A stretch of 64,000 nt of DNA from Prorocentrum cordatum (lineage: Eukaryota; Sar; Dinophyceae; Prorocentrales; Prorocentraceae). Numbering within the stretch: position 1 is the first letter of the stretch; every line of letters starts with the position of its first letter. The DNA lies in the NCBI GenBank assembly GCA_963575745.1, contig CAUYUJ010014564.1, positions 138,501 to 202,500 on the forward strand, in the 5' to 3' direction. Positions 3,201-18,732 of this stretch are shown one piece after another. Made by a program: the position numbers and the translations under genes. The notes under the pieces are model-generated. The model saw nothing but the letters and a program-made list of their open reading frames with translations, was not told the DNA's origin and did no database searches.

Positions 3201-3328
3201 ACCGCGGAGGACTTTGAGGGTAGCTCTTTGGGAAATGTTATAGTATCGGGAGCATAGCTCGCGCGCCGCTGCCTTGGGCTCAAGGCACGCGCGCCCTATT
3301 TGCCCGGACACTGCTTGTGTTCGCTATG

Positions 3329-3462
3329 TGCTGGAAAGATCATTACATCGATCTTATCCTATCTTACCCATCCACCCCTCATACTGTACCCTCACAGCAG
3401 AGCGATGGATGCTATTTGCCAGGCTATATGCCCTATTTGAGTTACCAGGCTCACTTTCGACT
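3329..3462 (+). repeat. Left LTR (134 bp)
   Basis: It starts TGCTGGAAAG and ends TTTCGACT, and is identical base for base to 18599-18732. It does not end in the usual CA. The first in-element ATG of the Gag frame (3428) lies inside this LTR. Confidence 0.9.
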
Positions 3463-4609
3463 TGGTAGCGGAGCTGGCCGCACTCTCGTGTGGTCAGCTC
3501 TTGCTCTTCTCAGCCTCACATTCTTCGGCACGATCTTCGTGACCACCTACTACCCTGCGCCACCACTCCCAGTACATTTACGAGGATCTATTCAAGAGCA
3601 AGAAGCTACACGAGAGGTGCGACGTCTAGACGACCAGATTGGTACCATATACGCTTCATCATTGCGTTACTATCAACCGCTCGGCAACGAGCCAATAACG
3701 CAATACCTGAAGCAAGGGCGGGGAAACCCGCCAGACAGAGCGCCTCGAAGACTCGACAAGGCGCTACCCCAGCGCGACACCGCTCATCATAACCGTCCTT
3801 CGTTACACATTCTCGGGCTAATCGTTTTCGCTATCATATGGTTCGCGCTGGGGGCAGCAATCGCACACATGCGTCGGGGAGATAACAGCACCGATGGGCA
3901 AACACATGGCCCATATTGGGACCCTCAGGGTAATGTACCTTTTCGTGAGTACATTTACGAGGTCAACGCGTGGCTCAACGTTACAAGCGGACGTATGACG
4001 CCACAGGCCCAAGCGGCCGCAATACAACGCGGCCTGGGAGGCCTAGCGAGGACACTCGCCATGAGGGTACCGCCTGACATCATAAACTATGGTGCTGATA
4101 TCGACGGGGTCCACACAGACCCAGTAACTTATATCATGTTTCTCCTCAGCATGAAATTCGAACGCCTGGAAGATGAGCGACAGCTCACTTCCGGCACACA
4201 ACTTATTGACTTCCATGTGCCTCACGGGGAACGAATCGATGTTACTCTTACCCGATTCGAAATGGCCCGACTTGAGGCGCAGTCGGTGGGATTCGACCTT
4301 CCCAACTTCCAACTGTTAACTACTATCCTATTCCGCGCCCTAGGCGTCGGCAACCAGAAGGCCATGCAACTCTTACAGCCACTCAATCACCAAATGCCTC
4401 GAACACAACAACAGTATGATGAGTTGCTGGAGAGGATGCGTTCGGTAGGCCACCTATCCGAACGATCTCCTGGTAACATAGGATCCGTGTTTGGAAGAGG
4501 AAGGGGATCTGGTAGTGGAAATTTCTACACTACCTTAACCACTGAAGCCCAGCCTGGAAACGGGCCCTCAAACATATGGGCCGACGATTCAGGAGAAGCC
4601 ACTGCTTGA
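3428..4609 (+). CDS. Gag-like capsid protein with N-terminal hydrophobic segments
   Basis: 393 codons from the first ATG inside the element; the frame is open further upstream. The region from about residue 172 to 360 resembles the dinoflagellate copia Gag domain: an opening Trp-Leu, glutamine/alanine helices, Gly-Gly-Leu-Ala-Arg, Asp-Pro-Val-Thr-Tyr, and a helical C-terminus. Two strongly hydrophobic stretches at about residues 19-43 and 128-148 look like membrane anchors, which is odd for a Gag. The frame ends at TGA 4607-4609 but stays open after it to 6193, so this and the next ORF may be one protein with a leaky stop. Two GNRA hairpins (3679, 3718) lie between the hydrophobic segments. 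The start codon is uncertain. Confidence 0.75.
   Translation: MPYLSYQAHFRLGSGAGRTLVWSALALLSLTFFGTIFVTTYYPAPPLPVHLRGSIQEQEATREVRRLDDQIGTIYASSLRYYQPLGNEPITQYLKQGRGNPPDRAPRRLDKALPQRDTAHHNRPSLHILGLIVFAIIWFALGAAIAHMRRGDNSTDGQTHGPYWDPQGNVPFREYIYEVNAWLNVTSGRMTPQAQAAAIQRGLGGLARTLAMRVPPDIINYGADIDGVHTDPVTYIMFLLSMKFERLEDERQLTSGTQLIDFHVPHGERIDVTLTRFEMARLEAQSVGFDLPNFQLLTTILFRALGVGNQKAMQLLQPLNHQMPRTQQQYDELLERMRSVGHLSERSPGNIGSVFGRGRGSGSGNFYTTLTTEAQPGNGPSNIWADDSGEATA
3463..3477 (+). promoter_or_regulatory. Candidate primer-binding site (initiator-Met tRNA-like)
   Basis: TGGTAGCGGAGCTGG directly abuts the left LTR. TGGTAGC is complementary to the GCTACCA 3' end of many eukaryotic initiator methionine tRNAs, the common copia primer. 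The exact tRNA of this organism is unknown, so only the first seven or so bases carry the inference. The site is also read through in the Gag frame. Confidence 0.55.
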
Positions 4610-4650
4610 CTAGCAGGGGATCGATCACAACCAAGCTGGGCAACCAGCCC
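4607..4650 (+). promoter_or_regulatory. Candidate UGA readthrough site: TGACTAG plus downstream hairpin
   Basis: The Gag stop is TGA followed by CTAG. UGA-CUAG is the best-known leaky stop context in animals. The frame then continues without a stop through 4610-6193. A GNRA hairpin (GCTGG-GCAA-CCAGC) begins 25 bases after the stop, at 4635. Downstream RNA structure is a common stimulator of readthrough. Function is inferred, and a point mutation is the alternative. Confidence 0.45.
4635..4649 (+). repeat. GNRA hairpin after the Gag TGA
   Basis: GCTGG-GCAA-CCAGC-C. It lies in the inter-ORF gap. If the gap is translated by readthrough it is read in a frame giving Ser-Trp-Ala-Thr-Ser-Pro, not the usual Gly-Asn peptide. 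Confidence 0.85.
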
Positions 4651-4810
4651 TCCTTCTAGAGAACCACAGCCACACCGCTCATTATGGGGGGAATCAAATC
4701 CCCTAACCGACGGTGTATCCACCTATTTAGGAGACGAAGACTTCGACTCCGGCACTGATACAGACACTATATCATCGGATGGTGTTGAAGCTCTAGATTG
4801 GTCTGATATC

Positions 4811-6193
4811 ATGAATATGGATAATGACAATCAGCGTGCTGAGCATTTATTCTGGCTGTTACAACAGGCCAAGCGAAGGTGGAGGAGGTTCGCACGAAAA
4901 CCAGTTCGTCGCGTTAGAAGTAGGATACGTAGAAGTTTTAAAGGAAAGGGCAAAGGCAAGCGTGGTCGTCGGAGGTTGAACGGGCGAGGTATCGCGGCAT
5001 TTCTCCAGAGGCTCTCCGATGAACAACATGATGAGATATTCTTTGGGGGGAAAGGCCGTGGTAAAGGCCGTGGAGAAACCTCAGGTAAAGGTAAAGGTAG
5101 GCGGGGAAACCCGCGAGGTAGAGACGGCCAGGTTCTCAAATGCCATGAATGTGGTAGTACCGATCATCTTGTGCGAGATTGTCCAGCGAAGGGAAATGGA
5201 AAGGGCATGTCGTCCGAAGTCCATTTCGGCTCAAGCACACCATCCATTGAGTATCTGAGCCTCCAGGACTTTGAGGCTATGGGACAGATATTTTTCACAT
5301 GGGTCGTTGGCATGGACAACATTGACAAGCTCGAGGGGTATGGTCATGGATTATACGCGCATTACCTCGAGTACGTCAGCCGGTTCGTCACGGGCAGTAA
5401 TGAACTCACTCCCGTGGAACACGGTACGCTCGGAAACGAGCCTCTTTCCTTCTTCGACTGGATGTTCGGGAACCCAGGCAACATCATGGCCTACGAGAGC
5501 GACGACGAGGACACCACTATAGAGGCTTCGCCTTCCGAGGTTCAACGGAACCTCGAACCTCCGCCCGAAATCCCGCCTGGAAACAGGCCTTCTTTGATGG
5601 GAGAATATCCCCAGACCACTGAAGACTTAATTGAAATGGAGTCTCAGGCATTTGTTCAGGCCTTCATTGCAGGCGAACCAGATATTCCGTTCATACCTCC
5701 TGGTTCGCTTGCTCCAGGCGAATATGGACCACGTACCCTTTTGCAGACCCTCATGAGGATGCATGAGATACTTACAATTGGTTATCCTGAAAGTCAAGAA
5801 CACATCGAAGCTGGCATCATGACAGAACAGGATAATGATGCTTGCGGTAGCTCAGAGCTACTCTTGGCAGCTCTGACTCTCATTGACAGTATAAATCCTC
5901 AGGAAGTGCAGAGACACTTGATATACTCCCATGGTAGATGGCGTCGTGCCCTGGAAATGGCAATGGCTATGCGTGGTCATGATCTTCCCCCGCCAGGATG
6001 GAATCTCCAGGGGCTGGGGATGAGGCCAAACCATACGGCCATGCGTAACATTGCTAGGCAGCCTATGCTCGTCGATGACCCTGAGCCGACGACTGTGCCT
6101 CCTACTCCAGGACAGCCGAGCGACGCCCAGACGCCGGCCATGCAGGGAAACCTGCCTTTGCCAGATGTGCCAATGGCCATCATAAATTGGTAG
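4811..6193 (+). CDS. Gag C-terminal part with CCHC zinc knuckle
   Basis: 460 codons from the ATG; the frame is open from 4610, directly after the Gag TGA. A very basic N-terminus (about residues 16-60) and a Gly-Lys/Arg-rich tract (about 75-108) precede a CCHC knuckle (CHECGSTDHLVRDC, spacing C-x2-C-x4-H-x4-C, about residues 111-124). This is a typical nucleocapsid RNA-binding arrangement. The remainder is acidic and Pro/Glu-rich with no recognised fold. It stops at TAG 6191-6193, overlapping by 8 bases the open frame that leads into the next ORF. Hairpins lie at 5101, 5428, 5575 and 6142. Confidence 0.8.
   Translation: MNMDNDNQRAEHLFWLLQQAKRRWRRFARKPVRRVRSRIRRSFKGKGKGKRGRRRLNGRGIAAFLQRLSDEQHDEIFFGGKGRGKGRGETSGKGKGRRGNPRGRDGQVLKCHECGSTDHLVRDCPAKGNGKGMSSEVHFGSSTPSIEYLSLQDFEAMGQIFFTWVVGMDNIDKLEGYGHGLYAHYLEYVSRFVTGSNELTPVEHGTLGNEPLSFFDWMFGNPGNIMAYESDDEDTTIEASPSEVQRNLEPPPEIPPGNRPSLMGEYPQTTEDLIEMESQAFVQAFIAGEPDIPFIPPGSLAPGEYGPRTLLQTLMRMHEILTIGYPESQEHIEAGIMTEQDNDACGSSELLLAALTLIDSINPQEVQRHLIYSHGRWRRALEMAMAMRGHDLPPPGWNLQGLGMRPNHTAMRNIARQPMLVDDPEPTTVPPTPGQPSDAQTPAMQGNLPLPDVPMAIINW
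5536..5555 (+). repeat. 8-bp hairpin inside the zinc-knuckle ORF
   Basis: CGAGGTTC, loop AACG, GAACCTCG. It is a longer stem than the GNRA family and is not followed by CC. It is only 20 bases upstream of the GNRA hairpin at 5575. Confidence 0.55.
6186..6193 (+). promoter_or_regulatory. Overlap requiring a +1 frame change
   Basis: The zinc-knuckle frame ends in AAT TGG TAG. The frame of the 1930-codon ORF is open from just after TAA 6183-6185. Only these 8 bases are shared, so a fused product would need a +1 shift here, as Ty1 uses between Gag and Pol. Initiation at ATG 6258 is the alternative. Confidence 0.4.
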
Positions 6194-6257
6194 TTCGACA
6201 TCAGAAGAAGTAGAAGGTGATGGTTGTGGGTTAGATGAGGATGACGTCACCATCCTC

Positions 6258-9200
6258 ATGATGGACGTGACTGGTGAGGAAGAGGTCGATTTCGACCCTG
6301 ATGAGTCTGAATCATCATCACCATCGGCACAAGAGCCACTTGCGCCGAGCTCCACCCAGCAGGGAGACCTGCCTCCATCGAGCGATCCATCTGGGATCGC
6401 AGAGGAGCCTCCTCAAGCACCTCCAACGGGTGCCGCTCCTGCCGCATCGGCAGCTTCTTCTGATGAGAACACCAGAAGATCTCGTTCCCATGCGCGCGTC
6501 AGAGAAGAGCCACATCCCCAGGCTCGACTTCCTCGTGAGTGGAGACAGGCTGGCCCAAAGGAACACGCTCTCAGAAGAGGTGGCCAGCTACTTCCGCACA
6601 ACGACCCACGACGCCGAAAAGGGGAACACTCGGCCTTCGGCCAGGGCAATCCTGCCTATAGGGACGGCGATGGCAGGCCCATCCGTGGAGGCTATCAGCT
6701 TGCAACAAACATCCGCCGCCCTGAAATTCAAGAAGCGCGGACCCAGTTGCGAGATATTATCGCGGCTCGCAAGCAGTATAGGCCTCACGCTGCATGCGGT
6801 CCTTGTTCCCAGCCGTTCCAGAATCACAGGCCAGGATGCCCCGTTGGAAACAACGAAGGCCTGAGCCCCAACAGGGGCAAAACCCCTCCTAAAGAGGGCC
6901 ATCCGCCACTTGACCCGATGACACCGGAAGAGATCGCAGTAGTGAATAGTCGTCTCGGGATCTTGGGCCACTTGGATCCGAAAGAAGAAGAGAAACCTAC
7001 TCCGGCTCCAAGGGGAATGGTAGCCATGACCCAGGAAGAGAAAGACGCGCTCTTTAGTCTTCCTGGTATGCGAGGAAACTCGCCTGGCGTCTCTAGCCAG
7101 TCCCAACAACCAGAGCCGATCATCAAGGACGAGACAAAGGCTCAACGTGTGGCGGAGGATGAGGAGCGTATTCGGACAGTAGAAGAACGCACACGCGAGG
7201 CAACTCGCAAGATGTTGGAGGATTCCAGCACGATCTACATGAAGGGGGCTAGGAAGCCCCCACTCCCACTAACTTCGAAGGCTAAGAGTGAACCCCCGAC
7301 ACCTAAGCCGTCTCCGGAGCCGAAACCGAAGGCGAGCTCTCAGAGCCCTGGGCCAGACGTGCATATGGAGGTGCCTCGATCTGCGACGCCGAGGCCGCCA
7401 ATTGGCGCAACTCCTCCACAACCGTTTGTGCCCAAGCAGCAACCTCAGGACCCTATGGAGGAACGAAGACGCCCGCTTAGTCGCAGCAAGTCCATTGCGA
7501 AAAGGGCGGCAGCTTTCGAGCGCAGTGGGTATGCACCTGCGCCAGCTTCGCCTGTGGCGGCTCGTTCCAGGAGGTCCGATGAAGGTGCTATGTCGAGGGG
7601 TAACTGGGCGCCGAAGATCAGGGGCAGCGCCAGTCGCGCATCTCCGCGGGGAAACCCGCCAGGCGCTGCTGCCGCAGCTTCCTCCTCTTCTGGAGCCGCA
7701 GCCTCTTCGGCAACAGAGGCTCCGATGCGGGGAAACCCGCCAGTAGTTCAGCTGCACCACCCAGGAGACACATCCTTTACTAGTGGGACTCCAGATCTGA
7801 TTAGGAATAGACTGGCACTTCGGAAGCTCCCACCGATACGTTCGGTGGATGAGTCATTCATGAAGGAATGCAGGAAGGCCGGAATTCTTCCCACATCCAA
7901 TGATACTCTTAAAAAGTTAAGCAAAGCTCTCAGCAGGAAATGTAGACATGCGCCAGATAAGTCACATAATCCTGTGTGGCGCCTGAGATCTTTTGATGAT
8001 CATGATGGTTGGATTAACCTCGTGGAACTCGTGGCTGACTTTCCGTGGAACACAGGTCACTCGAGGCACGCTGGACATAACCCAAAATATGACGAGGCCA
8101 AAGTCATTAGCGAGCAGTTGTATGGTCGCTCGGTTGACCAACTCGCAGCCATCATGATGGAAGTTGTTCATGTTCGTGAACCAGACGGAGAAGAAAAACA
8201 TTGCCTTCAATTCAAGGTGCTAATGCGGGACTCCGGCGAGCCCGCTATCTTCGTCCGCGCCTCTCAGGGGCATTCATGGACATTGAAAGCTCCATGGTCG
8301 CTGTGCAGTTACATTGTACTGTGCGACGAACCCGCCGGGAGACCGGCCCCATACCCTGAAGTCGCCATGCATGGCACTCGATGGCACGCTTTCGAAGGTA
8401 TCATGTGGTACGGCCTGTCCTGTAGACCTGAGCACAACACGAAGAAAAGGGGGACAGGCCGTTCGCACATCCATTTCGTGCCGACAGTGCGCCGCCGTGC
8501 CGTGAACAGTGGGTGGGACCCAGATTCAGACCTCATCATCTTTGTAGATTGGCGCAAGGCCATACAAGATGGTATGAAGTTCTGTTGGTCCGATAACGGA
8601 GTCCTCTTGTCCGAGGGAGATAACGGTATCATTGAACCGTATTACATTTCTCATGTAGAGGACCTGACCACTGGAAGGCAATGGCGCAACCCAGAATATT
8701 TGGGGAGCCGCCGTGCGCGAGTCTCTGTCAGTACGATGACTGCCTCAGATAGGTGGGCTGATGTTGGTAATTCCAGCATTAAGTACCAGTGGTCCCGAGA
8801 CCAAGAGGGCGTTGATCCAGCCATGGTCTACCTCCACAGGGACGTTGGGGACCACTACAGCCCCACCCAGCTGGGAAACCAGCCTGAGATCTTTCGGATC
8901 TTTATGATCACCGAGAGTGAGGCCGGGAGCGCGGCTCCAAGCCGTGCCCCAAGCCAAGGGCCGAGCGCCGTGTCTTGGCAGGCCATAAGTACTTCAGACC
9001 TGGATCAAATTGCAGCTTCGCTGAACCCTGACCAGGTAGAACAGCTGGCGGACAGGCTGTACCAGCAGGATCCCTGGGCCGCAGGCCAGGGAGCAATGTC
9101 CGCTATGGCCACGAGAAATCGTCAAGCCATGCAGGGAAACCTGCCTACAAGCGGACCTGCTCGGTTCGAGCCAATGCACGCAAGCCCCACACAGAGCATG

Positions 9201-12050
9201 CACACTCCAAGGGGCATGACTCCATCGGGCACTCCGCCAGCACAGTCCCCATTTGGGACACCTGTCCGCCCTGCCGTAAACGGCGCACTCATGGAGAGGT
9301 TAGCTGCGGCTAGGGCTGATCACAGCACAGCCCTCTCCAACATGATGCCGCCCGGCACGCCAACGAGTCAGCAGGGAAACCTGCCTGGTACACCAAGCCA
9401 CCACAGGGCGGGTATACCCGACGACTATCGCTCAAGAGTGGCGGCCGCGGTACAGCAGATGCAGAACCATAATCTGCCTCACCCAGGTGGGCAGAGGTGG
9501 AGGCCAGCCTGGTCCTGGGAACCGGAGGGTCCCAACCCACGGGACCCCGCTCGGCAACGAGCCTTTATCCCGGCGTTTAACGCCCATCCGAGCATGTCTC
9601 AGGGCCAGAGGCCACCACCCACGCAGATGAATCCGCCATTATACCCTGACGGTACAAGGGTCCCGAACAAATTTGTTCGGGAATTGGCGGATCAGATGCA
9701 TAACCTCACCAATGTGCGCTGCAGTGACCACTCCATGTACCCGCACATGGCCTTCATGCCTTCTCCAACATCACCAGAGGTGGTTGTGCAACCCACTGCC
9801 CATTCAATATCGTCTGGCAGTAGGGGCGTGCCTGACTACATCAGGCAGACGCACCGCACTCAGCAGGCATGTTTCAGGAGGAGGCAGGCGGTGCAAAGTG
9901 TACGGGGCCAGTCACGTGCAGCTGCACTCGACGTGGTGCGGAATAGGGGCTCACCTTTGCGAGGGAACTCGCCTGCCGTGACTCCTACCACTTCCATGCC
10001 CAATGTCGAAGTGCAGGAAGTGCTGAATCCAGCGGGGACACCCCCATCAGCCTTCATGCCCTCCGAGACGGTATTGGAGAGGCAGCGGCGGGTATATCCC
10101 AGGGTAGCAGACGTAGAAGTCTTTACTGGGATGGAGGACACCTGTGCTGTATGCCTCGAAGAATTTCAGCCCAGGGATAGTGTGTACCGCCTGAGGTGCA
10201 ATCACCTATTCCACGAGGGATGCTGGAATTCTAACGTGGTGGGCCACGTGACAAACCAGCGTGAGGGAGATCCCCAGCAGCCACCATGTGCGATCTGTCG
10301 TGCACCTGGCATTATAACATCGTCCTTCCCATGGACTGGCTCCCTTAGTCAGACTCCCGAGCAGTCAGCGAGGGAGCTGCGGGAGCTGAGGAGCATGGTG
10401 GAGGAGATGACGGCCAGGATGCTAGCTATGCAGACAGTTTCGTCACACCAGCAGGGACACCTGCCTGAAGAGGTAAGGCCGCCTATGGCAACGGGATATT
10501 TCGATCAGCTTATCCCGATGACGGCGCCTCAGCAGGGAAACCTGCATGATACTCCTCAGATGTCTCCCCAGAGTGGAGGCGAGGCTGAGATGTCACTGGA
10601 CCCCGATCAGCTGCGCGAGTTGCGTGTGCGACATTTCCAGAATCAGATGGATAATACGCAGTCAACGTTTATGCTAGATGCCAATAATCCTGAAACTGAC
10701 AGTCCGTCGTTAGACCTATCAGAATCCTCAGCGGCGTCAGCAGCAACAGCAGCCAGGGCCATCAACATCTCAGCGACGAATGAGGAGTTCGAGGAGTGGC
10801 TGCGGTACCGGGATCACGTCACGAACGAGGGGCTACAAGACATCGCCCTTCTCTCGTACCTGACGCTGATAAGGCGCACTACCCGCGAGCAGTATATGAG
10901 CATACGTGATGAGTATGCCAACTGGCGGGGGGAGCGTGGTGATCACGCCCAGCACGTGTCGTACTTCCAGTACATTGACCTGGCACGCATGGCCGAGAGC
11001 GAGTCGCATGCCAGTGTCGTGCGGGGTAACCCGCCAGGGAGTGCGAATGTGCCGCGGGGAAACCCGCGTACCGACACAGCCGACACTTCAGAAACTGTGC
11101 ACATCAAGCAGCCGAGTAAGACGTTTTTGGATGACGGTGGAAATTCCATACTCATCGACGTCGGTTCGAAGATCAACATCATGGGCGAGAACACGAGCCG
11201 TAAGTTCGTCCAGGCTGCTGAGTCACATGGTCGTGCTTGTACGTTCGAGCCCCGCTCTCGTTTGCATATCAACGGAGTGGGAGAGGGGTCGGCCCCAGCG
11301 GATACCGTAGGCACATTTAGCATTGCCTGCGAGTACCAGGGGTCAGCCCAACACGATTCATACAAGACGAACATTGTGTCAGGCTGTGGAAAGGACCTGC
11401 CAGCCATCCTAGGTCTCGACAGTATGCAGGACAAACGCACGATCATCGTGCTTGAACGAGGCCAGGAAAAGCTGATATTCCCTGGTAAGGGGCAGGTCAA
11501 GATGGAGCTCCCGGAAGGCTCCAAAATCATGCCGACGACGAAGTTGCCGTCAGGGCATCTGTCGATCAGGTGTGATCGTTTTGGAGCTGCGGGGCAACCC
11601 GCCTCGAGCTCAAGCAGCACGTCCTTCCAGACAGTGCTGACAGGCGAGCCGACCCCAGCGCAGGAGCGCAATCAATTGCAGGGAAACCTGCCCCAGGGGT
11701 TGATGGAGACGCTCGCCAAGGCCACCATGCGAGGCGACAACATCGACGATCTCGAGACGTTCGATTGTTTTGTTGCCAGGACACTGGCCCAGCATGGTGG
11801 TAGTGTACCCATGGACGCTGTGCAGTCCCGCCGTAAAATAGTGATGGGATACACTAATCGTGAATTGCATACGGTCAGCGACGCTAGGTCCAAAGGCGTG
11901 CTGAAACAGCTGATGGATAATCCATCGATGCTGACAGCATTTGCGGAGCAATCCGCCTCTGAGGCCACGGCGCGCTGCAGTGCTGAGCTCCAGCATCTGA
12001 GGGAAGCCCAGATGTTGGCAGATATTGTAGGCACATCTTCTTCATCTTGA
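6258..12050 (+). CDS. Large polyprotein: Tpt1/KptA-like domain, RING-H2 finger, retropepsin
   Basis: 1930 codons. Residues 1-530 are Pro/Ser/Arg-rich and low in order. Residues about 537-805 match the Tpt1/KptA RNA 2'-phosphotransferase plan: a LSxxLSRKCRH helix with a following DGW motif, RASQGHS (667-673), HGT (705-707), GRSHIHF (about 735-740) and SDNGVLL. Tpt1 uses NAD+ to remove internal RNA 2'-phosphates. Residues 1296-1347 form a RING-H2 finger with all eight Cys/His ligands (CAVC, CNHLFHEGC, CAIC). A retropepsin lies near 1625-1760, with DVGS (D1634) in place of the usual DTGA/DSGA and the ILGLD strand at 1717-1721. Seventeen GNRA hairpins fall in this ORF. It ends at TGA 12048-12050, but the same frame runs on into the integrase ORF. 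Confidence 0.82.
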   Translation: MMDVTGEEEVDFDPDESESSSPSAQEPLAPSSTQQGDLPPSSDPSGIAEEPPQAPPTGAAPAASAASSDENTRRSRSHARVREEPHPQARLPREWRQAGPKEHALRRGGQLLPHNDPRRRKGEHSAFGQGNPAYRDGDGRPIRGGYQLATNIRRPEIQEARTQLRDIIAARKQYRPHAACGPCSQPFQNHRPGCPVGNNEGLSPNRGKTPPKEGHPPLDPMTPEEIAVVNSRLGILGHLDPKEEEKPTPAPRGMVAMTQEEKDALFSLPGMRGNSPGVSSQSQQPEPIIKDETKAQRVAEDEERIRTVEERTREATRKMLEDSSTIYMKGARKPPLPLTSKAKSEPPTPKPSPEPKPKASSQSPGPDVHMEVPRSATPRPPIGATPPQPFVPKQQPQDPMEERRRPLSRSKSIAKRAAAFERSGYAPAPASPVAARSRRSDEGAMSRGNWAPKIRGSASRASPRGNPPGAAAAASSSSGAAASSATEAPMRGNPPVVQLHHPGDTSFTSGTPDLIRNRLALRKLPPIRSVDESFMKECRKAGILPTSNDTLKKLSKALSRKCRHAPDKSHNPVWRLRSFDDHDGWINLVELVADFPWNTGHSRHAGHNPKYDEAKVISEQLYGRSVDQLAAIMMEVVHVREPDGEEKHCLQFKVLMRDSGEPAIFVRASQGHSWTLKAPWSLCSYIVLCDEPAGRPAPYPEVAMHGTRWHAFEGIMWYGLSCRPEHNTKKRGTGRSHIHFVPTVRRRAVNSGWDPDSDLIIFVDWRKAIQDGMKFCWSDNGVLLSEGDNGIIEPYYISHVEDLTTGRQWRNPEYLGSRRARVSVSTMTASDRWADVGNSSIKYQWSRDQEGVDPAMVYLHRDVGDHYSPTQLGNQPEIFRIFMITESEAGSAAPSRAPSQGPSAVSWQAISTSDLDQIAASLNPDQVEQLADRLYQQDPWAAGQGAMSAMATRNRQAMQGNLPTSGPARFEPMHASPTQSMHTPRGMTPSGTPPAQSPFGTPVRPAVNGALMERLAAARADHSTALSNMMPPGTPTSQQGNLPGTPSHHRAGIPDDYRSRVAAAVQQMQNHNLPHPGGQRWRPAWSWEPEGPNPRDPARQRAFIPAFNAHPSMSQGQRPPPTQMNPPLYPDGTRVPNKFVRELADQMHNLTNVRCSDHSMYPHMAFMPSPTSPEVVVQPTAHSISSGSRGVPDYIRQTHRTQQACFRRRQAVQSVRGQSRAAALDVVRNRGSPLRGNSPAVTPTTSMPNVEVQEVLNPAGTPPSAFMPSETVLERQRRVYPRVADVEVFTGMEDTCAVCLEEFQPRDSVYRLRCNHLFHEGCWNSNVVGHVTNQREGDPQQPPCAICRAPGIITSSFPWTGSLSQTPEQSARELRELRSMVEEMTARMLAMQTVSSHQQGHLPEEVRPPMATGYFDQLIPMTAPQQGNLHDTPQMSPQSGGEAEMSLDPDQLRELRVRHFQNQMDNTQSTFMLDANNPETDSPSLDLSESSAASAATAARAINISATNEEFEEWLRYRDHVTNEGLQDIALLSYLTLIRRTTREQYMSIRDEYANWRGERGDHAQHVSYFQYIDLARMAESESHASVVRGNPPGSANVPRGNPRTDTADTSETVHIKQPSKTFLDDGGNSILIDVGSKINIMGENTSRKFVQAAESHGRACTFEPRSRLHINGVGEGSAPADTVGTFSIACEYQGSAQHDSYKTNIVSGCGKDLPAILGLDSMQDKRTIIVLERGQEKLIFPGKGQVKMELPEGSKIMPTTKLPSGHLSIRCDRFGAAGQPASSSSSTSFQTVLTGEPTPAQERNQLQGNLPQGLMETLAKATMRGDNIDDLETFDCFVARTLAQHGGSVPMDAVQSRRKIVMGYTNRELHTVSDARSKGVLKQLMDNPSMLTAFAEQSASEATARCSAELQHLREAQMLADIVGTSSSS
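8334..8348 (+). repeat. GNRA hairpin read in an alternative frame within the Tpt1-like domain
   Basis: GCCGG-GAGA-CCGGC-C. It encodes Ala-Gly-Arg-Pro-Ala rather than Gly-Asn-x-Pro. It is the only copy with CG at the variable pairs and lies between the QGHS and HGT motifs. Confidence 0.8.
9549..9563 (+). repeat. GNRA hairpin read in an alternative frame
   Basis: GCTCG-GCAA-CGAGC-C, translated Ala-Arg-Gln-Arg-Ala. The same 15-nt word at 3679 is translated in a different frame as Leu-Gly-Asn-Glu-Pro. Confidence 0.85.
9661..9682. repeat. Perfect 22-bp palindrome inside the polyprotein ORF
   Basis: The half-site TCCCGAACAAA is followed immediately by its reverse complement. It is unlike the GNRA hairpins because it has no spacer, so it is a dyad as duplex DNA. 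Confidence 0.7.
11589..11603 (+). repeat. GNRA hairpin read in an alternative frame, downstream of the protease
   Basis: GCGGG-GCAA-CCCGC-C, translated Ala-Gly-Gln-Pro-Ala. Confidence 0.8.
12048..12050 (+). promoter_or_regulatory. In-frame TGA between protease and integrase ORFs
   Basis: TGA is followed by AGA TGG CAG and thirteen sense codons up to ATG 12090. The two ORFs therefore share one frame interrupted only by this UGA. ATCTTC and GAAGAT bracket the stop as a weak 6-bp stem. A GNRA hairpin begins at 12121. It is either recoded or a nonsense substitution. Confidence 0.5.
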
Positions 12051-12089
12051 AGATGGCAGGGCGACGTCGCCCCCTCGTCGTCTTGCCTG

Positions 12090-15000
12090 ATGGCTGAAAA
12101 GCCGGGGGGTAACAAGGACAGCGGGGCAACCTGCCTTAGTAAGAGGGCTTTTGTCATTGAAGATACGAGGGAGGCATGTGCCGACCTCCGCACACGAGGT
12201 TATATTTGTGACCGTATTTCCCACAACGAACTTATGACAAGCGTGGGCACAAACTATCTAGGTGCGGTGATCAGTGGAGATTACACTCTCATATGGATCA
12301 GTACTCCGGGTGACTGGTATATACGAACTCCAGGAAAGAGAGTGGCCCCACACTGGTCACGTATCCAGAACCTGTTGATAAAAGCCAAGAAACTCCGCAT
12401 GAACATCATTATATTCGGTCCCCCAGGATATGTTTGGAAGTTATCTCCAGTACGTGATGCTCTGGAAGATCTAAAGTTGTCAGTGATACGGATGCGTTTG
12501 TGTCATTTCGGTATTCGGTTCAACATGCAAGACAATACACCAAGTGGTACATATATGCAGGTAGCATCATCGATACCGATTTGCTCGAAGCTGTGGACAT
12601 GTACCTGTAAGCAGGCCATACCACAACATGTGTTGGACTGGTACGGCCATACGGTACGACATGCTGAATGGCGGGCTCAGGCACGTACTACACTCATCCG
12701 TTACTTAAACGACAAAATCCTGGGGAGTACCACCACGCACGGAAACGTGCCCGTATACTTAAATACGTATACACGTACAGACCATAATACCCGTCATTAC
12801 GTGACGACTCATAAGGGAGGACCAAAATGGTCTGAAGTCATCCGACGTGTAACAATCAATTTGGATACCAACGCGGTTATTCAAGATATCTCAGTTACCG
12901 ATCAACCAACAGGGTATGATTGGCATGCACCATTACCTGCAGGGGTTGCCAACATCAGTACTCGGTTGTACTGGCAACCCGAGGAACCGGTCTTGCTCGG
13001 AAACGAGCCTACTCAATCACCACAGAAACATAGACGCGTCATCATAGATGACTGTTCTCTCCCCCTCCCGACTCTGGCGATTGACGCATGTACCCATTCC
13101 ACCACGACAATGAGTACACAGACCGACGAACAAAACGAGCAAGCTTTACCCACTGAATCGCGTATAAAGCAGAAGGAAAGGCTCAAAGCCGAAAAGGAAG
13201 CAGGCATCAAGCCTCGCCGCATTCAAAAGCACGTCGAAGACGGAAATGACGATTGCGGCGATGACTTGTCAGGACTCGGACAGGATCTTATGGCAACCTG
13301 GAGTACTGACGTCCCTGTTGAGCTGATAAGCTCCGACGAAGACGATGACCTGTTCCTTACCCTTCCCACATCTATGCCCGACACACACGCTAACATATAC
13401 AGCATAGTTGCTACACTATGCTACGGCCATAACAATTGCGTGGATATGTTGGAGCTTTGTGGTGGTGAGGGTGGCATCACAGAACTTGCCTTCTCAAGGG
13501 GACTTTCCTCAGGCGGCAACTTGGACAAGACTACATATGTCGACCTGGGAGACCCCTCGGTGCAGCAGGTTATAGATCATTACTTTAAGATATGCTACGT
13601 ACGAGTTGCCATGCTGCAACCCAGCTGCCGCACCACAGGACCACCATCTTACTATAACTACAAAGTCAACTATAATACTTGGGAACGGCACCACAGAGAA
13701 GACTTACCACACATAATCTATTGTGGTAAAATTGCTGTTACCCAAGATGACGCTCAGAGGTGGTTTATACGCGAACAACCGACAGGAACATGGGTGGACG
13801 ATATCTCTCCATGGACGAAGCTTGCCAACCGACCACACATCACGACCGTGCGCATTGATCAATGCGCTACTGGACTTAAAGATACGACTGGTGACTATAT
13901 TAAGAAGCCGACAAATATCACCAGCAACGACAAGACAATTCTTAAACCCTTTGAGCGACTCAAGTGCAACGGTCAGCATGTGCACGCACAACCGTGCAAC
14001 ACCGAGCTTTCACTGGCACAAAAATACACTCGACGACTGCAGTCTGCCTTCGTGGAAGCCGTCTACTTGGCGAAAGCCATTGACACCACGCGCGGAAACG
14101 CGCCTATAAATACTGCACATGCTTATCCTGCCGACCTTCCTGAGCAAGCTGAACCAGGTGAAGGTATGAGACGCATCGGTGATCGTATCATCCCAAAGGT
14201 GGCTACGTGCCCGGCATGCATCGACAACGTCCGAAAGGACAGTCCTAGCCATAACAGAGACCCTACGCAGTGCAAATATCATGACTCTATCTCTGTATAC
14301 TGGCCATGTCCAGCATGTCAGAGGGATCTTACGAGAAGCAAGGGTGTTAAGAATCACCTTGATACCGAACCTGGTAAATGTCGTTTTGCTGAACCATTTA
14401 AACTACCAGACGACCACGACCCCGAAGGCAAAACCGTGCCAGCTTGGTGGAAACCCCTACCTAAACCTGGTGAGGGCCAAGCTTCAGCTTCAGGTGGCCG
14501 CCAAGGCGCACGCGCCAGGCCACCACGACCACGTTCCTTCGGTAACGTCGATCCGACATCTGGTACCAGCAGCTACGACCTGCTACGAGACGCCCCCGAG
14601 CGTGGAAACACGCCTTCTGCGTCTTCTAGCGATACGCCACAGGTAGCGGCCCGCCGCGGACGTCTACAAGGCGTACCACCACCTCCAGACGCAGTCAACA
14701 CAGGGGATCAACTACGTAGAGCTACAAGGAACCCTCTTGCCTCCACCGGCTCTGGGGCTCCACGACTACCCGACTGGACGAGATTTGACATCCAACGCAG
14801 TCTACAGAGTCTCCGTAGTCACGAACCCCATGTTGTGAAAAAGGAATTCCGAAAACTGCATCTGCGATGGTATCATGCGAAGGAGCCAAAGATGAGGCTA
14901 ATCCTCGAAAAGGTGGGGCTTGATAACGTTCGACTGAACATGATCAAGGAAATCTGCGATACCTGTCGGGAATGTAGAGCATGGGAACGTCCTGGAAACT

Positions 15001-16064
15001 CGACATTACCATCAGTAAGCCTCCCTGGCAGCTGGCTCGATGAAGGGGAAATGGACCTCATGTTTTACAAGAAACGGACCATATTTCATATTATGGATCG
15101 CTGTATTCGCCTGGCAGCAGGCCTAGAGATTTCCGACAGAGAACGCGACGCTATCATCGACGCCTACCACTATTGCTGGATTGCCTATCACGGACCCTTC
15201 AAAGTTTTATACTCAGACGGAGAAGGCGCCCTGAATAACGATGCCGCTAAAACCATGATGGCCAATAAGGGCACGGAACTTCGTATCCGTGCTCCTGGCC
15301 AACACGCGACTTCAATTGAGTCACGAAACGGCATTCTCAGAGGCGTCCTCCACATGATTGAGGAAGAATTGAATAGACACAACATCCCTGTTGTATTCAC
15401 TAGAGTATTGGCGGAAGGCATCTTCGTTACTAATGCGTTTACGTTTTATAACGGAGTATCGCCATATCAGGCACACACAGGACGTCAGCCCTCCTTCCTT
15501 CCTGATCTCGATACCCTTGACTTTCCCAAGGGACCCGAGACTTCAGGACACGAACGAGAACGTCGTGTAAGGGAAGTCAGCCTCGAAGCCATAACTCAGG
15601 CTACTGCTGTAGCCAAGACAAATCGGGCTCTTAGGGCTAAGACGACTCCTGATGGTGCTCGCCTCTACTCATCAGGGGATTTGGTCGACTACCACCGACC
15701 TACTGCCACCAAGGACGACCATGGAGGCTGGAACGGCCCATTCCCGGTGATCCGAAACGTGCCTGAAAGAGGACATATTGTTGTCAAGGCAGGATCTCGT
15801 GAGGTAATTGTGATGTATCCTGATGCTCGTCACACACTATACATCGAATGTCTCCTCACACGGGAACTTGGCATGGATAATATGGCCATGCAAACCGTCC
15901 TTGCTTATGTGGCACACCTCAGCGCAGGGAAACCTGCCAAAGTTTTCGGGTATATCCCCGACTACAAGGGAAACCTTAACCTGTCAGACGATAGCAAGTT
16001 TCACCCGCGCGTACACCTAGCACTACAATATCTCGTACGAAATTACTCAGAGTGGAACATGTAG
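12090..16064 (+). CDS. Pol part: methyltransferase-like region and integrase
   Basis: 1324 codons. An N-terminal region (about residues 20-200) is conserved in dinoflagellate copia polyproteins but has no known function. From residue 452, DMLELCGGEGG resembles the SAM-binding motif I of cytosine-5 methyltransferases; QPSC (about 509) sits where their PC loop would be; REQP and a KPT-TN segment follow. The usual catalytic Pro-Cys pair is not present in canonical form. The integrase has an H-x4-H (about 919-924), C-x2-C (956, 959) zinc motif and acidic residues D989, D1043 and E1077, followed by a C-terminal chromodomain-like or SH3-like stretch. It ends at TAG and overlaps the next frame. Hairpins lie at 12121, 12737, 12995, 14090, 14600 and 15924. 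Confidence 0.85.
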   Translation: MAEKPGGNKDSGATCLSKRAFVIEDTREACADLRTRGYICDRISHNELMTSVGTNYLGAVISGDYTLIWISTPGDWYIRTPGKRVAPHWSRIQNLLIKAKKLRMNIIIFGPPGYVWKLSPVRDALEDLKLSVIRMRLCHFGIRFNMQDNTPSGTYMQVASSIPICSKLWTCTCKQAIPQHVLDWYGHTVRHAEWRAQARTTLIRYLNDKILGSTTTHGNVPVYLNTYTRTDHNTRHYVTTHKGGPKWSEVIRRVTINLDTNAVIQDISVTDQPTGYDWHAPLPAGVANISTRLYWQPEEPVLLGNEPTQSPQKHRRVIIDDCSLPLPTLAIDACTHSTTTMSTQTDEQNEQALPTESRIKQKERLKAEKEAGIKPRRIQKHVEDGNDDCGDDLSGLGQDLMATWSTDVPVELISSDEDDDLFLTLPTSMPDTHANIYSIVATLCYGHNNCVDMLELCGGEGGITELAFSRGLSSGGNLDKTTYVDLGDPSVQQVIDHYFKICYVRVAMLQPSCRTTGPPSYYNYKVNYNTWERHHREDLPHIIYCGKIAVTQDDAQRWFIREQPTGTWVDDISPWTKLANRPHITTVRIDQCATGLKDTTGDYIKKPTNITSNDKTILKPFERLKCNGQHVHAQPCNTELSLAQKYTRRLQSAFVEAVYLAKAIDTTRGNAPINTAHAYPADLPEQAEPGEGMRRIGDRIIPKVATCPACIDNVRKDSPSHNRDPTQCKYHDSISVYWPCPACQRDLTRSKGVKNHLDTEPGKCRFAEPFKLPDDHDPEGKTVPAWWKPLPKPGEGQASASGGRQGARARPPRPRSFGNVDPTSGTSSYDLLRDAPERGNTPSASSSDTPQVAARRGRLQGVPPPPDAVNTGDQLRRATRNPLASTGSGAPRLPDWTRFDIQRSLQSLRSHEPHVVKKEFRKLHLRWYHAKEPKMRLILEKVGLDNVRLNMIKEICDTCRECRAWERPGNSTLPSVSLPGSWLDEGEMDLMFYKKRTIFHIMDRCIRLAAGLEISDRERDAIIDAYHYCWIAYHGPFKVLYSDGEGALNNDAAKTMMANKGTELRIRAPGQHATSIESRNGILRGVLHMIEEELNRHNIPVVFTRVLAEGIFVTNAFTFYNGVSPYQAHTGRQPSFLPDLDTLDFPKGPETSGHERERRVREVSLEAITQATAVAKTNRALRAKTTPDGARLYSSGDLVDYHRPTATKDDHGGWNGPFPVIRNVPERGHIVVKAGSREVIVMYPDARHTLYIECLLTRELGMDNMAMQTVLAYVAHLSAGKPAKVFGYIPDYKGNLNLSDDSKFHPRVHLALQYLVRNYSEWNM
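12121..12135 (+). repeat. GNRA hairpin with G-T wobble, third frame
   Basis: GCGGG-GCAA-CCTGC-C. It is translated Ser-Gly-Ala-Thr-Cys near the start of the integrase ORF, 71 bases after TGA 12048. Confidence 0.75.
15924..15938 (+). repeat. GNRA hairpin read in an alternative frame near the end of the integrase ORF
   Basis: GCAGG-GAAA-CCTGC-C, translated Ala-Gly-Lys-Pro-Ala. The identical 15-mer at 6142 is translated Gln-Gly-Asn-Leu-Pro. A 4-bp relative (AAGG-GAAA-CCTT) follows at 15966. Confidence 0.85.
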
Positions 16065-16573
16065 TAGCAGTTCGATTGGCTAAGAGTGTGTCAAGCCTAC
16101 CTGCAGTAAAGTACGCCACCGGGTCTACGCTGATCCACTATGACAATGACATTAGCCCGGCGTTCCACTACTACGAATGTGTGGGCACCGGCCTAAACAT
16201 CTTTCAGATTACTGGTAGCACTCACTCCAGACTTATTCAATGCTTGACTTCACGTGTCCCTTCCTTAGGATTTCACGATGACCTGGCTAAATATCAGCAT
16301 CCAAGCAACACGTCTGGAGAACACGAGTCGCCTGGAAACAGGCCTTCTCCAGACACACCAGATGCTTCATCGCCTAGCGAAGGCCGTCTGTCGACAATCT
16401 ATGAGGAAAATGAGGAACACACTATCGAAGCCATGATGCTGGAAGAGTGGTACGACGAATTACGTATGGACCTTCATCCTACGACGATTACAGATGATTA
16501 TCTCTATTGCGTCCCAACAACTATGCTGCCTAACCAATGCGTTTTTGGTTTCAGCATTTGCGGACGAAGATGA
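16052..16573 (+). CDS. Pol linker fragment between integrase and RT
   Basis: 173 codons counted from a GTG; the frame is open upstream of it. It is -1 relative to the integrase ORF, which it overlaps by 13 bases, and it overlaps the RT ORF by 80. It is acidic and low in recognised motifs, as expected for the integrase-RT linker of copia Pol. It holds the hairpin at 16330. It is more likely a piece of one Pol reading path than a separate protein. Confidence 0.55.
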   Translation: MEHVVAVRLAKSVSSLPAVKYATGSTLIHYDNDISPAFHYYECVGTGLNIFQITGSTHSRLIQCLTSRVPSLGFHDDLAKYQHPSNTSGEHESPGNRPSPDTPDASSPSEGRLSTIYEENEEHTIEAMMLEEWYDELRMDLHPTTITDDYLYCVPTTMLPNQCVFGFSICGRR

Positions 16574-18467
16574 TATTACATCATCAGATATGCTCGGAGA
16601 CGAGAGCTATTCCCTAGACAGTGATGAATATGGTCCTTACGTTGAACTATGTTTTACATCAGAAATGTCAAAAATAGTGTTGGATCAGACCCAACTTGCA
16701 CAGCTCGATACCGATATGGTCGCAACGATGAGAGTATATGTATCCAATGCTGCTAAACGTGCTGTGGTTGTCAAAGAAGACGACCTACTGACCAAAGCCG
16801 ACATAGCAGCACATCCAAAGGAGGTTAGTGAAGCCTTATATACTGAGCTCAAGATCTGGATTGATAACCGATGCTTTGAGATGTACGACTTATCCAAAGC
16901 TTCCAACATCATGACATCCAGATATGTATACAAGTGGAAGTTCGTAAAGATGGGCACCGAGAACGTTAAAACCATTCGTCTCAGATTGGTCCTTCGTGGA
17001 TTTATGGATACTGAGGCCTTTGATGTGGAAACATTCTCGGGAACCGCCCGAAGGCAGTCTCAACGACTCTTGGCAAGTGAAGCGGCATGTCATCCAGAGT
17101 GGATCTTAGCATCCATGGATATCGATAAGGCGTTCCTAAAAGGTTTGACCTACGAGGAACTTGCCCATGCCACTGGCGAGGAAACTCGCATGGTCTGCTT
17201 TGCTCTTCCACCAGGAAGCGCTCAGGTACTTCGCACCCTACCCGGCTTCTCATCCTACGACGAAAGTCGACGCTGTCTTAGGTGCCTCAAACCAGGAACG
17301 GGTACTAAGGACGCCCCAAGAGCGTTCTCTCTCAAACTTCGTACGACCAATCCTGAATTTGAATTCAGCCAAGATCTTCTGACTGCACAACATGTCGATG
17401 ACATTAATATGACAGGTCTAGAGAAAAATATCGACGACTATGTACAACGTGTCGAAAAGGTGTTTGGCAAATGCAAGCTCAACAAGCACACATATACGAA
17501 CTGTGCCGTCCGCTACACTAAGAATGATCAGGGAGATGTGATCATGGACCAGGACGAGTATATCAAACACCTACGTCCTATCACACATCCAGAACTTACA
17601 GGAGCGGCGGCCGACGCCAAAGCCACGAAACTTATTACCGACATGTTCGTCAGCCTGCGAGGAGCCCTCGCCTATGCCCTTCTTACTCAAATCTGGCTTA
17701 TGGTATATGTGGTCTCTCTTCAGAAAATTCAAGAGCCCACCAATTTACAAGTCAGACGTTTGAATGCTGTCACGCGAAAGCTGATCAGCAGTCCGAAACG
17801 TATCACCTTCCCTCGGATGAAGCCGACGAATGAAGTCGACATCCATAGCGATTCGGGATATCGGAAGCTTACCGGAGAGGAGGATGACGAGACCAAGGGC
17901 TACGGCATACGCGGGGCCAACGTACTACGGCGAGGAAACTCGCCTCAAGGCAAGTCCGTCGTTCACCTCTGTGACGGACTATGCAAATCACACCGATTAC
18001 AGGTGAGGTCCAGTTATGCTGCGGAGGCACTTGCAGCCGCACATAACCTTGATGAGTGTTACCCTACGCTCATTACTCTCCATGAGCTTAAGGCAGGGGC
18101 CTTGACTCCACGACAACTACGAGATATGCGTGAAGTTGGAGGCCTTGCTATCAAAGTCTCTCTGACCATAGACGCTGAGTCCGTCTACAAATCTTTATCA
18201 AGCAGGGATCTCAAAATACCCACAGAACGGACTCTGCTTGGACATATCAGTTGGATACGTGAGCTTATGGATATAGGTATAGTACATAATGTGCAATGGT
18301 GTGATACTAGGGATATGACCGCAGATGGGCATACAAAGGGAAGCATCGATCGGGAACTGCTTCTGGAAGTGATGTCAGGCACTCAGTCATTTAAGTATGA
18401 CGTGAAGCAATTTGTCCCCTTTCGGGGTCCCGAGGACAGAGACAAACCTAAGTTTAATCAATTTTAG
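16494..18467 (+). CDS. Copia reverse transcriptase and RNase H
   Basis: 657 codons. The N-terminal palm carries SMDIDKAFLKG (catalytic D209), LKPGTGTKDAPRAF in place of the copia YGLKQAP helix, and HVDD (300-303) as the active-site box where copia has YVDD. A thumb region follows, then RNase H with HSDSGY (D453), AAEALAA (E511), TIDAES (D560) and CDTRDMTADGHTKGS. These match dinoflagellate copia relatives closely and all acidic residues are kept, so the enzyme could be active. The frame change from the preceding fragment lies in the 16494-16573 overlap, which contains a run of five T (16540 region). Hairpins at 17176 and 17930 sit in it. Confidence 0.93.
   Translation: MIISIASQQLCCLTNAFLVSAFADEDDITSSDMLGDESYSLDSDEYGPYVELCFTSEMSKIVLDQTQLAQLDTDMVATMRVYVSNAAKRAVVVKEDDLLTKADIAAHPKEVSEALYTELKIWIDNRCFEMYDLSKASNIMTSRYVYKWKFVKMGTENVKTIRLRLVLRGFMDTEAFDVETFSGTARRQSQRLLASEAACHPEWILASMDIDKAFLKGLTYEELAHATGEETRMVCFALPPGSAQVLRTLPGFSSYDESRRCLRCLKPGTGTKDAPRAFSLKLRTTNPEFEFSQDLLTAQHVDDINMTGLEKNIDDYVQRVEKVFGKCKLNKHTYTNCAVRYTKNDQGDVIMDQDEYIKHLRPITHPELTGAAADAKATKLITDMFVSLRGALAYALLTQIWLMVYVVSLQKIQEPTNLQVRRLNAVTRKLISSPKRITFPRMKPTNEVDIHSDSGYRKLTGEEDDETKGYGIRGANVLRRGNSPQGKSVVHLCDGLCKSHRLQVRSSYAAEALAAAHNLDECYPTLITLHELKAGALTPRQLRDMREVGGLAIKVSLTIDAESVYKSLSSRDLKIPTERTLLGHISWIRELMDIGIVHNVQWCDTRDMTADGHTKGSIDRELLLEVMSGTQSFKYDVKQFVPFRGPEDRDKPKFNQF
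17176..17190 (+). repeat. GNRA hairpin inside the RT palm, third frame
   Basis: GCGAG-GAAA-CTCGC followed by A. It is translated Gly-Glu-Glu-Thr-Arg. It sits just after the first catalytic Asp block, in otherwise conserved RT sequence. Confidence 0.75.
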
Positions 18468-18598
18468 TCTGTCCTTGTTGCCCTCGTGGTCCAGTTTGCC
18501 AGCACGGGCGCCTACTATAAAGGCGCCCCTCTAGTTGCTCGGAAACGAGCCTCATATTTCACGCCTGGCAACGAGCCGGCTTCATACAACTCAGGCTC
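18468..18598 (+). other. 3' untranslated region of the retrotransposon
   Basis: It contains a 7-bp stem (GGGCGCC 18506-18512, GGCGCCC 18522-18528) whose loop reads TACTATAAA. An intact GNRA hairpin follows at 18537 and a mismatched relative at about 18563. No purine-rich tract precedes the LTR. Confidence 0.6.
18537..18551 (+). repeat. GNRA hairpin in non-coding 3' region
   Basis: GCTCG-GAAA-CGAGC-C, 70 bases after the RT stop codon. It is a non-coding copy of the word found in coding sequence at 5428 and 12995. Confidence 0.88.
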
Positions 18599-18732
18599 TG
18601 CTGGAAAGATCATTACATCGATCTTATCCTATCTTACCCATCCACCCCTCATACTGTACCCTCACAGCAGAGCGATGGATGCTATTTGCCAGGCTATATG
18701 CCCTATTTGAGTTACCAGGCTCACTTTCGACT
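18599..18732 (+). repeat. Right LTR (134 bp)
   Basis: Identical to 3329-3462. It is followed directly by GGAGGGCCCTCTTGGG of the minisatellite family, with no duplication of the left flank. Confidence 0.9.

Follow-up and report, generated by a model that had tools for sequence, protein, structure and literature searches.

Dispersed, family-specific sense-strand hairpins in giant copia-type retrotransposons of Prorocentrum cordatum

We analyzed a 64,000-nt stretch of the Prorocentrum cordatum genome (contig CAUYUJ010014564.1, positions 138,501 to 202,500, forward strand; hereafter the window), in which positions 3329-18732 are a giant copia-type long terminal repeat (LTR) retrotransposon. Two features place it in the Ty1/copia group: (i) identical 134-nt repeats at its two ends, and (ii) a match of open reading frame (ORF) 4 to the reverse transcriptase family RVT_2 (PF07727, E 4e-9) that exceeds the curated cut-off. 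The sense strand of this element, which we call family A, is studded with 14-nt hairpins of one pattern (Table 1). Two related families of the same genome, B and C, carry hairpin sets of their own, and the hairpins of all three families are selected, sense-strand, frame-independent, family-specific and dispersed.

Hairpins of the family A element

An initial annotation had described at least 35 plus-strand copies of a GNRA-tetraloop hairpin with a trailing C in this element, and no clear copy elsewhere in the window. We counted hairpins with the pattern GCNNGGNNACNNGC, in which a GC-NNN stem encloses a GNNA loop of whatever sequence and the trailing C is optional. The + strand of the element held 38 matches, 35 of them with a complementary stem centre; permuting the right halves left a mean of 5.5 complementary and a maximum of 15 in 10,000 permutations. 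A complementary GCNNG-GNNA-CNNGC was found neither on the - strand of the element nor, with both strands counted, in the other 48.5 kb of the window, in agreement with the annotation. The stricter pattern GCNNGGNRACNNGCC matched the + strand of the window 31 times and the - strand 0 times. Thirty of these matches lie inside the element (3679-18577), and exactly 27 of the 30 have a complementary centre, the number of full-consensus copies first reported. The other three are at 4552 and 12121, with one G-U pair each, and at 18563; the 31st match, at 24649 outside the element, is unpaired.

The proposed compensatory covariation is upheld: the 35 hairpins use 11 different central pair combinations, and their outer and closing pairs are fixed. 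The loops are GAAA (23), GCAA (5), GACA (3), GAGA (2), GGAA (1) and GTAA (1), so that GNNA describes them better than GNRA; the trailing C follows 30 of the 35 hairpins rather than all of them. Spacing along the element is slightly more even than random (coefficient of variation 0.70 vs 0.96, 2% of simulations), and we do not use it as evidence.

The hairpins are read in three frames, as had been claimed. By our own tally 24 are in one frame, six in a second and two in a third, and three rather than two lie outside the listed ORFs. The preferred frame, x-[CNN]-G-[N/D/H]-[NNG]-P with N in most, accounts for 24 of the 32 in-ORF copies, a point that the annotation did not stress. Among second-frame hairpins the next base falls on a third codon position and is a C in 6/6. 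The identical 15-mer at 6142 and 15924 is translated QGNLP and AGKPA, respectively. Synonymous codon shuffling of the family A ORFs left a mean of 0.84 hairpins (maximum 5 of 300 shuffles) vs 33 observed. When inverted repeats were sorted by loop length, other loop lengths of family A exceeded their shuffles as well (8 nt, 32 vs 13; 6 nt, 31 vs 15), so the baseline of those shuffles is low. On inspection, we saw no common loop sequence among the 8-nt loops of family A, and the commonest 6-nt loop, GGAAAC (3), belongs to GAAA hairpins.

The marked preference of A and of B for one reading frame would fit a repeat at the protein level, in which a linker peptide (xGNxP, AGPPA) is the repeated unit and the hairpin a by-product of its codons. 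This explanation has next to nothing left to it once three observations are considered: synonymous shuffles remove nearly all hairpins, other-frame and non-coding copies are present, and third codon positions within stems are unchanged among the copies described below.

Table 1. Hairpins and other features of the family A element, in window coordinates
Feature	Position	Strand	Remark
Hairpin GCTCG-GCAA-CGAGC	3679..3692	+	
Hairpin GCGGG-GAAA-CCCGC	3718..3731	+	
Hairpin GCGAG-GACA-CTCGC	4046..4059	+	
Near-hairpin	4552..4565	+	One U-G pair
Hairpin GCTGG-GCAA-CCAGC	4635..4648	+	Outside listed ORFs
Hairpin GCGGG-GAAA-CCCGC	5101..5114	+	
Hairpin GCTCG-GAAA-CGAGC	5428..5441	+	
Hairpin GCCTG-GAAA-CAGGC	5575..5588	+	
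Hairpin GCAGG-GAAA-CCTGC	6142..6155	+	
Hairpin GCAGG-GAGA-CCTGC	6359..6372	+	
Hairpin GCGAG-GAAA-CTCGC	7070..7083	+	
Hairpin GCGAG-GCAA-CTCGC	7195..7208	+	
Hairpin GCGGG-GAAA-CCCGC	7646..7659	+	
Hairpin GCGGG-GAAA-CCCGC	7727..7740	+	
Hairpin GCCGG-GAGA-CCGGC	8334..8347	+	
Hairpin GCTGG-GAAA-CCAGC	8870..8883	+	
Hairpin GCAGG-GAAA-CCTGC	9131..9144	+	
Hairpin GCAGG-GAAA-CCTGC	9371..9384	+	
Hairpin GCTCG-GCAA-CGAGC	9549..9562	+	
Hairpin GCGAG-GGAA-CTCGC	9959..9972	+	
Hairpin GCAGG-GACA-CCTGC	10451..10464	+	
Hairpin GCAGG-GAAA-CCTGC	10532..10545	+	
Hairpin GCGGG-GTAA-CCCGC	11021..11034	+	
Hairpin GCGGG-GAAA-CCCGC	11054..11067	+	
Hairpin GCGGG-GCAA-CCCGC	11589..11602	+	
Hairpin GCAGG-GAAA-CCTGC	11678..11691	+	
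Hairpin GCCAG-GACA-CTGGC	11775..11788	+	
Near-hairpin	12121..12134	+	One G-U pair
Hairpin GCACG-GAAA-CGTGC	12737..12750	+	
Hairpin GCTCG-GAAA-CGAGC	12995..13008	+	
Hairpin GCGCG-GAAA-CGCGC	14090..14103	+	
Hairpin GCGTG-GAAA-CACGC	14600..14613	+	
Hairpin GCAGG-GAAA-CCTGC	15924..15937	+	Family B, same site: GCGGG-GAAA-CCCGC
Hairpin GCCTG-GAAA-CAGGC	16330..16343	+	Outside listed ORFs
Hairpin GCGAG-GAAA-CTCGC	17176..17189	+	
Hairpin GCGAG-GAAA-CTCGC	17930..17943	+	Family B, same site: GCGTG-GCCA-CACGC
Hairpin GCTCG-GAAA-CGAGC	18537..18550	+	Outside listed ORFs
5' LTR	3329..3462	+	134 nt or more, same sequence as 18599-18732
3' LTR	18599..18732	+	Identical to 3329-3462
Open frame	3317..4609	+	Aligns with Gag-side frame of family B
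ORF1	4811..6193	+	Arginine-rich stretch and CCHC zinc knuckle (Gag/NC-like)
ORF2	6258..12050	+	1930 residues; Tpt1/KptA-like domain, RING finger
ORF3	12090..16064	+	Integrase-like by eye
ORF4	16494..18467	+	Reverse transcriptase RVT_2

ORF2 carries a Tpt1/KptA RNA 2'-phosphotransferase-like domain (PF01885), which matches with E 3e-20 in family A and 9e-15 in family B (L040, 1920-8816); a RING finger occurs in both. The parts of family C that were scanned gave no Tpt1 match and only a weak RING match. Residues 540-800 of ORF2 matched 0 of 253 candidates in the protein database, and relatives looked for in viral contigs were not found. ORF3 has HHCC-like and DDE-like stretches by eye only, and Pfam gave no integrase match; a resemblance to cytosine methyltransferases (LELCGGEGG, PSCRTTGPPS) was likewise seen by eye, with none reported by Pfam. 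The window copy may be defective. At about 16065-16600 its ORF3 and ORF4 are separated, and its hairpin at 16592 is damaged, whereas 28 of the 29 other copies have it intact; among related copies, the reverse transcriptase lies within a single frame of 2165-2169 residues in 19/68 rows of scored candidates. A 46-nt stretch beyond both LTRs (3155-3200, 18844-18889) is 96% identical between the two sides, so the element possibly sits inside a local repeat. Arrays with an 11-nt period (CTCTTGGGGCC-like) flank it at 1593-1851, 2834-2910 and 18739-18861, and a tandem repeat with an 18-nt period, e.g. TGGTGTCGTTTTGTTGCT, lies at 2333-2569.

Purifying selection among family A copies

We scanned the genome (4.13 Gb, 21,875 contigs) and found 108,589 pattern matches vs 32,022 for a reversed control. 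Among the first 100 places listed, seven were complementary (counted by eye; about 1 in 16 expected by chance) vs 27/30 in the family A element, and two of the seven sit in a family B element. A satellite-like unpaired repeat makes up 39 of the same 100 places, 33 of them a GCCAGG... cluster at G000:C2, about 1467000-1506000, and six on C1. We scored 67 of 13,448 first-look candidates and took 30 loci; single pattern matches (L001-L008) were left out.

Twenty-nine near copies (L010-L038) retain seven hairpins of the 3' part. Alignment cells inside these hairpins departed from the majority in 5/2842 cases vs 1745/83,792 elsewhere, and only 0.2% of 5000 random window sets were equally low; 4 of 203 hairpins were broken (L011, L018 and two in L028). 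Three more distant family A loci (L056-L058), 89-95% identical by segment and about 94% overall, cover 24 hairpins. Their stems carry 0/460 substitutions vs 1232/20,882 in the rest. Restricted to third codon positions, the counts are 0/156 in stems vs 777/6719 (11.6%) elsewhere. In the loops, the first and last bases changed in 1/92 cases, the second base in 3/46 and the third in 2/46. Strong purifying selection thus retains the stem and the GNNA loop frame (first and last base), not the coding sequence.

Related families and the origin of new hairpins

Family B spans G000:C1 2,046,000-2,061,600 and is 65-67% identical to A in DNA in the two longest alignments; our counts cover the analyzed part of the element, its 5' end lying further upstream. 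The sense strand holds 36 paired GC-NNN-GNNA hairpins and the antisense strand four by the same loose pattern. Most of the set is of the form GCGGG-GNCA-CCCGC; 23 of the 36 have the stem GCGGG, and the loops are GCCA (17), GTCA (11), GACA (2), GAAA (2) and four singles. The loop preference therefore differs between the families: GNAA in 30/35 for A vs GNCA in 31/36 for B. With one wobble allowed, 38 of 44 in-ORF sites share one frame, other than that of A, encoding AGPPA, AGSPA and similar peptides. Synonymous shuffles of family B gave a mean of 0.53 and a maximum of 3 vs 27 observed.

Two ungapped sites can be aligned between A and B, at 15924 and 17930 (Table 1). Both keep their pairing in B with other stem letters, at 15924 by a synonymous double change, so covariation also holds within homologous sites, where the annotation had sought its own refutation. 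The remaining marked A and B hairpin sites fall mostly at non-coinciding places in the alignment. Besides the first family B locus, we compared pieces of nine others out of 76 places listed; L053 is rearranged and in part poorly aligned, and its aligned parts were counted. Differences inside hairpins amounted to 19/1493 (1.3%) vs 1957/36,715 (5.3%) outside, and about 1% of random window sets were as low. All 19 are in the loop, and many are common to several loci. The annotation's claim of selection on nucleic acid is therefore well founded, since the hairpins persist across frames and outside ORFs, change in a compensatory manner at aligned sites, and are conserved in their stems far above third codon positions.

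The family B loci also reveal how hairpins are gained. Between two hairpins, a 24-nt hairpin unit is present an extra 0, 1 (L047, L048) or 2 (L049, L050, L052) times. A 45-nt tract (8721-8765) shares 95.6% identity with 5904-5948, and the nine other loci lack its extra hairpin; the direction of this duplication is one that we infer. In family A, identity between hairpins spans 17-34 nt only. Therefore short-tract duplication supplies hairpins, and selection keeps them. The copying suspected by the annotation is real in this sense, and its units are the 24-nt repeat and the 45-nt tract; exact 15-nt insertions, which had been suggested as a check, left no clean five-residue gap at A-B aligned sites (by eye).

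Copying raises the question of whether the hairpin is a selfish palindromic unit that spreads by template switching and is tolerated by the element without serving it. Mitochondrial double-hairpin elements and Rickettsia palindromic elements are short self-multiplying palindromic units, some of them in frame. The 24-nt tandem gains, the dispersed 45-nt duplicate and the preferred in-frame reading as small turn-like peptides all suit such a unit. Unlike those units, the hairpins here are limited to one strand of element families, have a fixed loop frame and are under strong purifying selection on their stems. Spread without selection on each copy would leave unexplained the absence of any stem substitution where surrounding third codon positions changed 11.6%, the compensatory change at sites that have not moved, and two different hairpin classes within one clade. 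As a full account, the self-spreading hairpin that the annotation had offered is improbable.

A third loop type is suggested by P0059, a database protein 70% identical to ORF3 and known from protein alone. At the sites of A it reads LLGDEP for LLGNEP, RGDTP for RGNAP and HGDVP for RGNTP, with AGKPA the same, and the implied codon pairs of LLGDEP, RGDTP and HGDVP are still reverse-complementary. In each of its seven complementary x-G-[N/D/H]-y peptides the two middle residues are G-D, which would correspond to a GNGA loop. At two of the five frame-2 sites, 12737 and 17930, it has G-S instead, and an AGY codon there would not yield a GNNA loop. We tried codon complementarity as a general test on P0059-P0074 and rejected it as non-discriminating: x-G-[N/D]-y peptides were complementary in 38/117 vs 27.5 permuted (p about 0.01) and x-G-[N/D/H]-y peptides in 39/151 vs 32 (p about 0.09); control peptides with a different third residue were in excess as well (72/299 vs 47). 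Only P0059 was used from this test, because its sites are alignable. Repeated peptides in P0035, P0042, P0011 and P0053 (HGNVTSDHGNVTSDRGNAT, QGHL/QGHL/RGHP) have codons that could form other stem or loop types, as judged from protein only.

Family C, at G000:C14074, measures 12.2 kb and has a related gene set; its 263-nt repeats are 98.9% identical. The GNNA set was not found in it; any-stem GNNA matches numbered one sense and six antisense in 16.9 kb. Its 3' 4.9 kb (L043, L044), without a GC-stem GNNA hairpin, had suggested family C as a negative control, a use that we abandoned because the full element has a class of its own. Sorted by loop length, 5-bp inverted repeats are in excess at 7 nt (35 vs 13 in shuffles), and the motif NNNGG-RTYGGNN-CCNNN (fourth loop base G or T) has 18 sense matches in several frames. 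All three outer pairs are complementary in 17 of the 18 (permutation mean 2.9, maximum 10); the single antisense match is unpaired. In a second C copy, whose long alignments are 79-90% identical, 11 of the 15 motif matches within the element are fully complementary, and one more match, at position 1295 outside the element, is unpaired. Of the 17 C hairpins, two have no aligned partner in this copy and one is almost wholly gapped. Stems changed in 6/142 positions vs 1459/11,344 elsewhere, and loop positions 2-5 in 1/56 vs 10/42 for positions 1, 6 and 7.

Stem-loops with a shared motif are thus found along the genomic RNA of A (35), B (36 in the part analyzed) and C (17), and the strand bias persists in the related elements, with sense/antisense counts of 35/0 in A, 17/0 in C and, by the loose pattern, 36/4 in B. 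That related families would carry different hairpin classes was not foreseen by the annotation. Because of the strand bias and the GNNA loop, RNA rather than DNA is probably the acting form. Imperfect pairs are too few to weigh on the same point: G-U against A-C mismatches number 5 vs 2 in A and B together (two A entries and one B entry have other mismatches) and 3 vs 1 at the four imperfect sites of the second C copy.

The hairpins might instead act during reverse transcription, through pausing, strand transfer, recombination or repeated second-strand priming, or act on the cDNA. Local and distant duplication of hairpin tracts is what template switching would produce, and stems are conserved among copies. 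Pausing would not need a near-fixed first and last loop base, a further family-specific base and the conserved loop core of C, and family B loops lack the purine run of a polypurine primer. We regard a role of this kind as quite unlikely.

Candidate readers and known systems

We hypothesize, in line with an idea of the annotation, that the hairpin array serves for multivalent binding of an element-encoded protein, most likely Gag. That the reader would come from the element itself is suggested by the differences between related families of one genome. In the Gag-side ORFs of A, B and C an arginine-rich stretch precedes a CCHC motif, and zf-CCHC scores above the Pfam cut-off in A only. This nucleocapsid part of Gag would read the hairpins, and each family would thereby select, condense and package its own long RNA among competing element RNAs. 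We give about even chances to the proposal that Gag or another element protein binds the hairpins for multivalent self-recognition, condensation or packaging. A broader proposal, to which we incline somewhat less than evenly, is that each family of the clade has its own signature (a UCGG-core heptaloop or a GNAA, GNGA or GNCA tetraloop), present in tens of copies and evolving together with the Gag of that family, as a distributed and self-renewing tag that sorts the element RNAs competing in one cell.

Several points weigh against this candidate role of Gag. The minimum-energy fold with 60-nt flanks contains all stem pairs in 32/35 hairpins of A, 13/32 of B and 6/17 of C; near-identical neighbors in B and C may cross-pair, giving poorer folds. 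Covariation inside B is weak (28/29 complementary vs a permutation mean of 19.4, maximum 26), because 24 of its 29 motif matches have one stem centre. Family C shares the arginine-rich stretch, which therefore does not vary with the hairpin class. The loop differences between families could stem in part from the preferred frame and its amino acids (24/32 in A, 38/44 in B) and from founder copying. According to the accessible parts of the Ty1 literature, that element tolerates internal deletions of up to 5 kb, 380 nt and 357 nt of its ends sufficing in cis (PMC4974528), and its Gag binds RNA with high affinity and low specificity (PMC8396678).

Selection on a sense-strand hairpin is silent on whose protein binds it. 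A host RNA-binding protein or pathway (translation, localization, decay or silencing) could recognize the hairpins, with the families exploiting or evading it; A, B and C differ in consensus within one host, whereas a single reader would favor one shared consensus, and we think a host reader unlikely, if worth keeping in mind. Alternatively, the loops could dock into receptors elsewhere in the RNA and compact the long genome with no protein involved. Docking is a classic role of GNRA loops; the 11-nt receptor motif, sought with a simple two-part pattern, has a single match in A and none in B, and the loops of C are not GNRA, which makes such compaction very improbable.

If Gag is the reader, the hairpins would be a distributed self-recognition tag, falling among dispersed packaging signals; otherwise the 35 hairpins of a single RNA are under strong selection of another kind. 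The choice of the correct RNA by Gag is an unsolved problem in LTR retrotransposons; in RNA viruses, the degenerate sites of dispersed packaging signals make these signals difficult to study. Here a cross-binding or cross-packaging comparison is straightforward, because the sites are near-identical, countable, conserved above the coding background and different between families in one genome. In the open-access literature searched, no dispersed signature hairpin set was described in a retrotransposon, nor did that literature yield any comparable feature of a retroelement, an absence that is weak evidence; the set may be new. The terms hairpin, stem-loop and tetraloop do not occur in the main text of a study of dinoflagellate DNMT retrotransposons (PMC5890265).

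We compared the hairpins with three further known systems. In phage lambda, there is one boxB hairpin per nut site, and it serves antitermination. The resemblance to the family A hairpins lies in a short hairpin with a GNRA-type fold. As far as the accessible text of PMC12027372 goes, boxB is bound by the arginine-rich helix of the N protein, a precedent for such a helix on a GNRA-type hairpin; unlike boxB, a GNRNA pentaloop with a required closing U-A pair, family A has a GNNA tetraloop closed by G-C in 35/35. Ty1 and Ty3 are likewise LTR retrotransposons, and their Gag recognizes genomic RNA with the involvement of structured RNA (PMC4974528, PMC8396678, PMC11381356); a repeated signature hairpin is not mentioned in the available portions of these articles. 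Minimal cis sequences of Ty1 lie at its ends, whereas family A hairpins occur throughout 3679-18550. Single-stranded RNA viruses offer another likeness, many stem-loops with a common recognition feature across a genomic RNA: for MS2 and hepatitis B pregenomic RNA, the part of PMC6281560 available to us describes multiple dispersed packaging signals that share a feature and are proposed to bind capsid protein. The hairpins described here differ from those signals in belonging to an LTR retrotransposon and being known from sequence alone, and in their near-identical copies, covarying stems and a consensus that changes from family to family.

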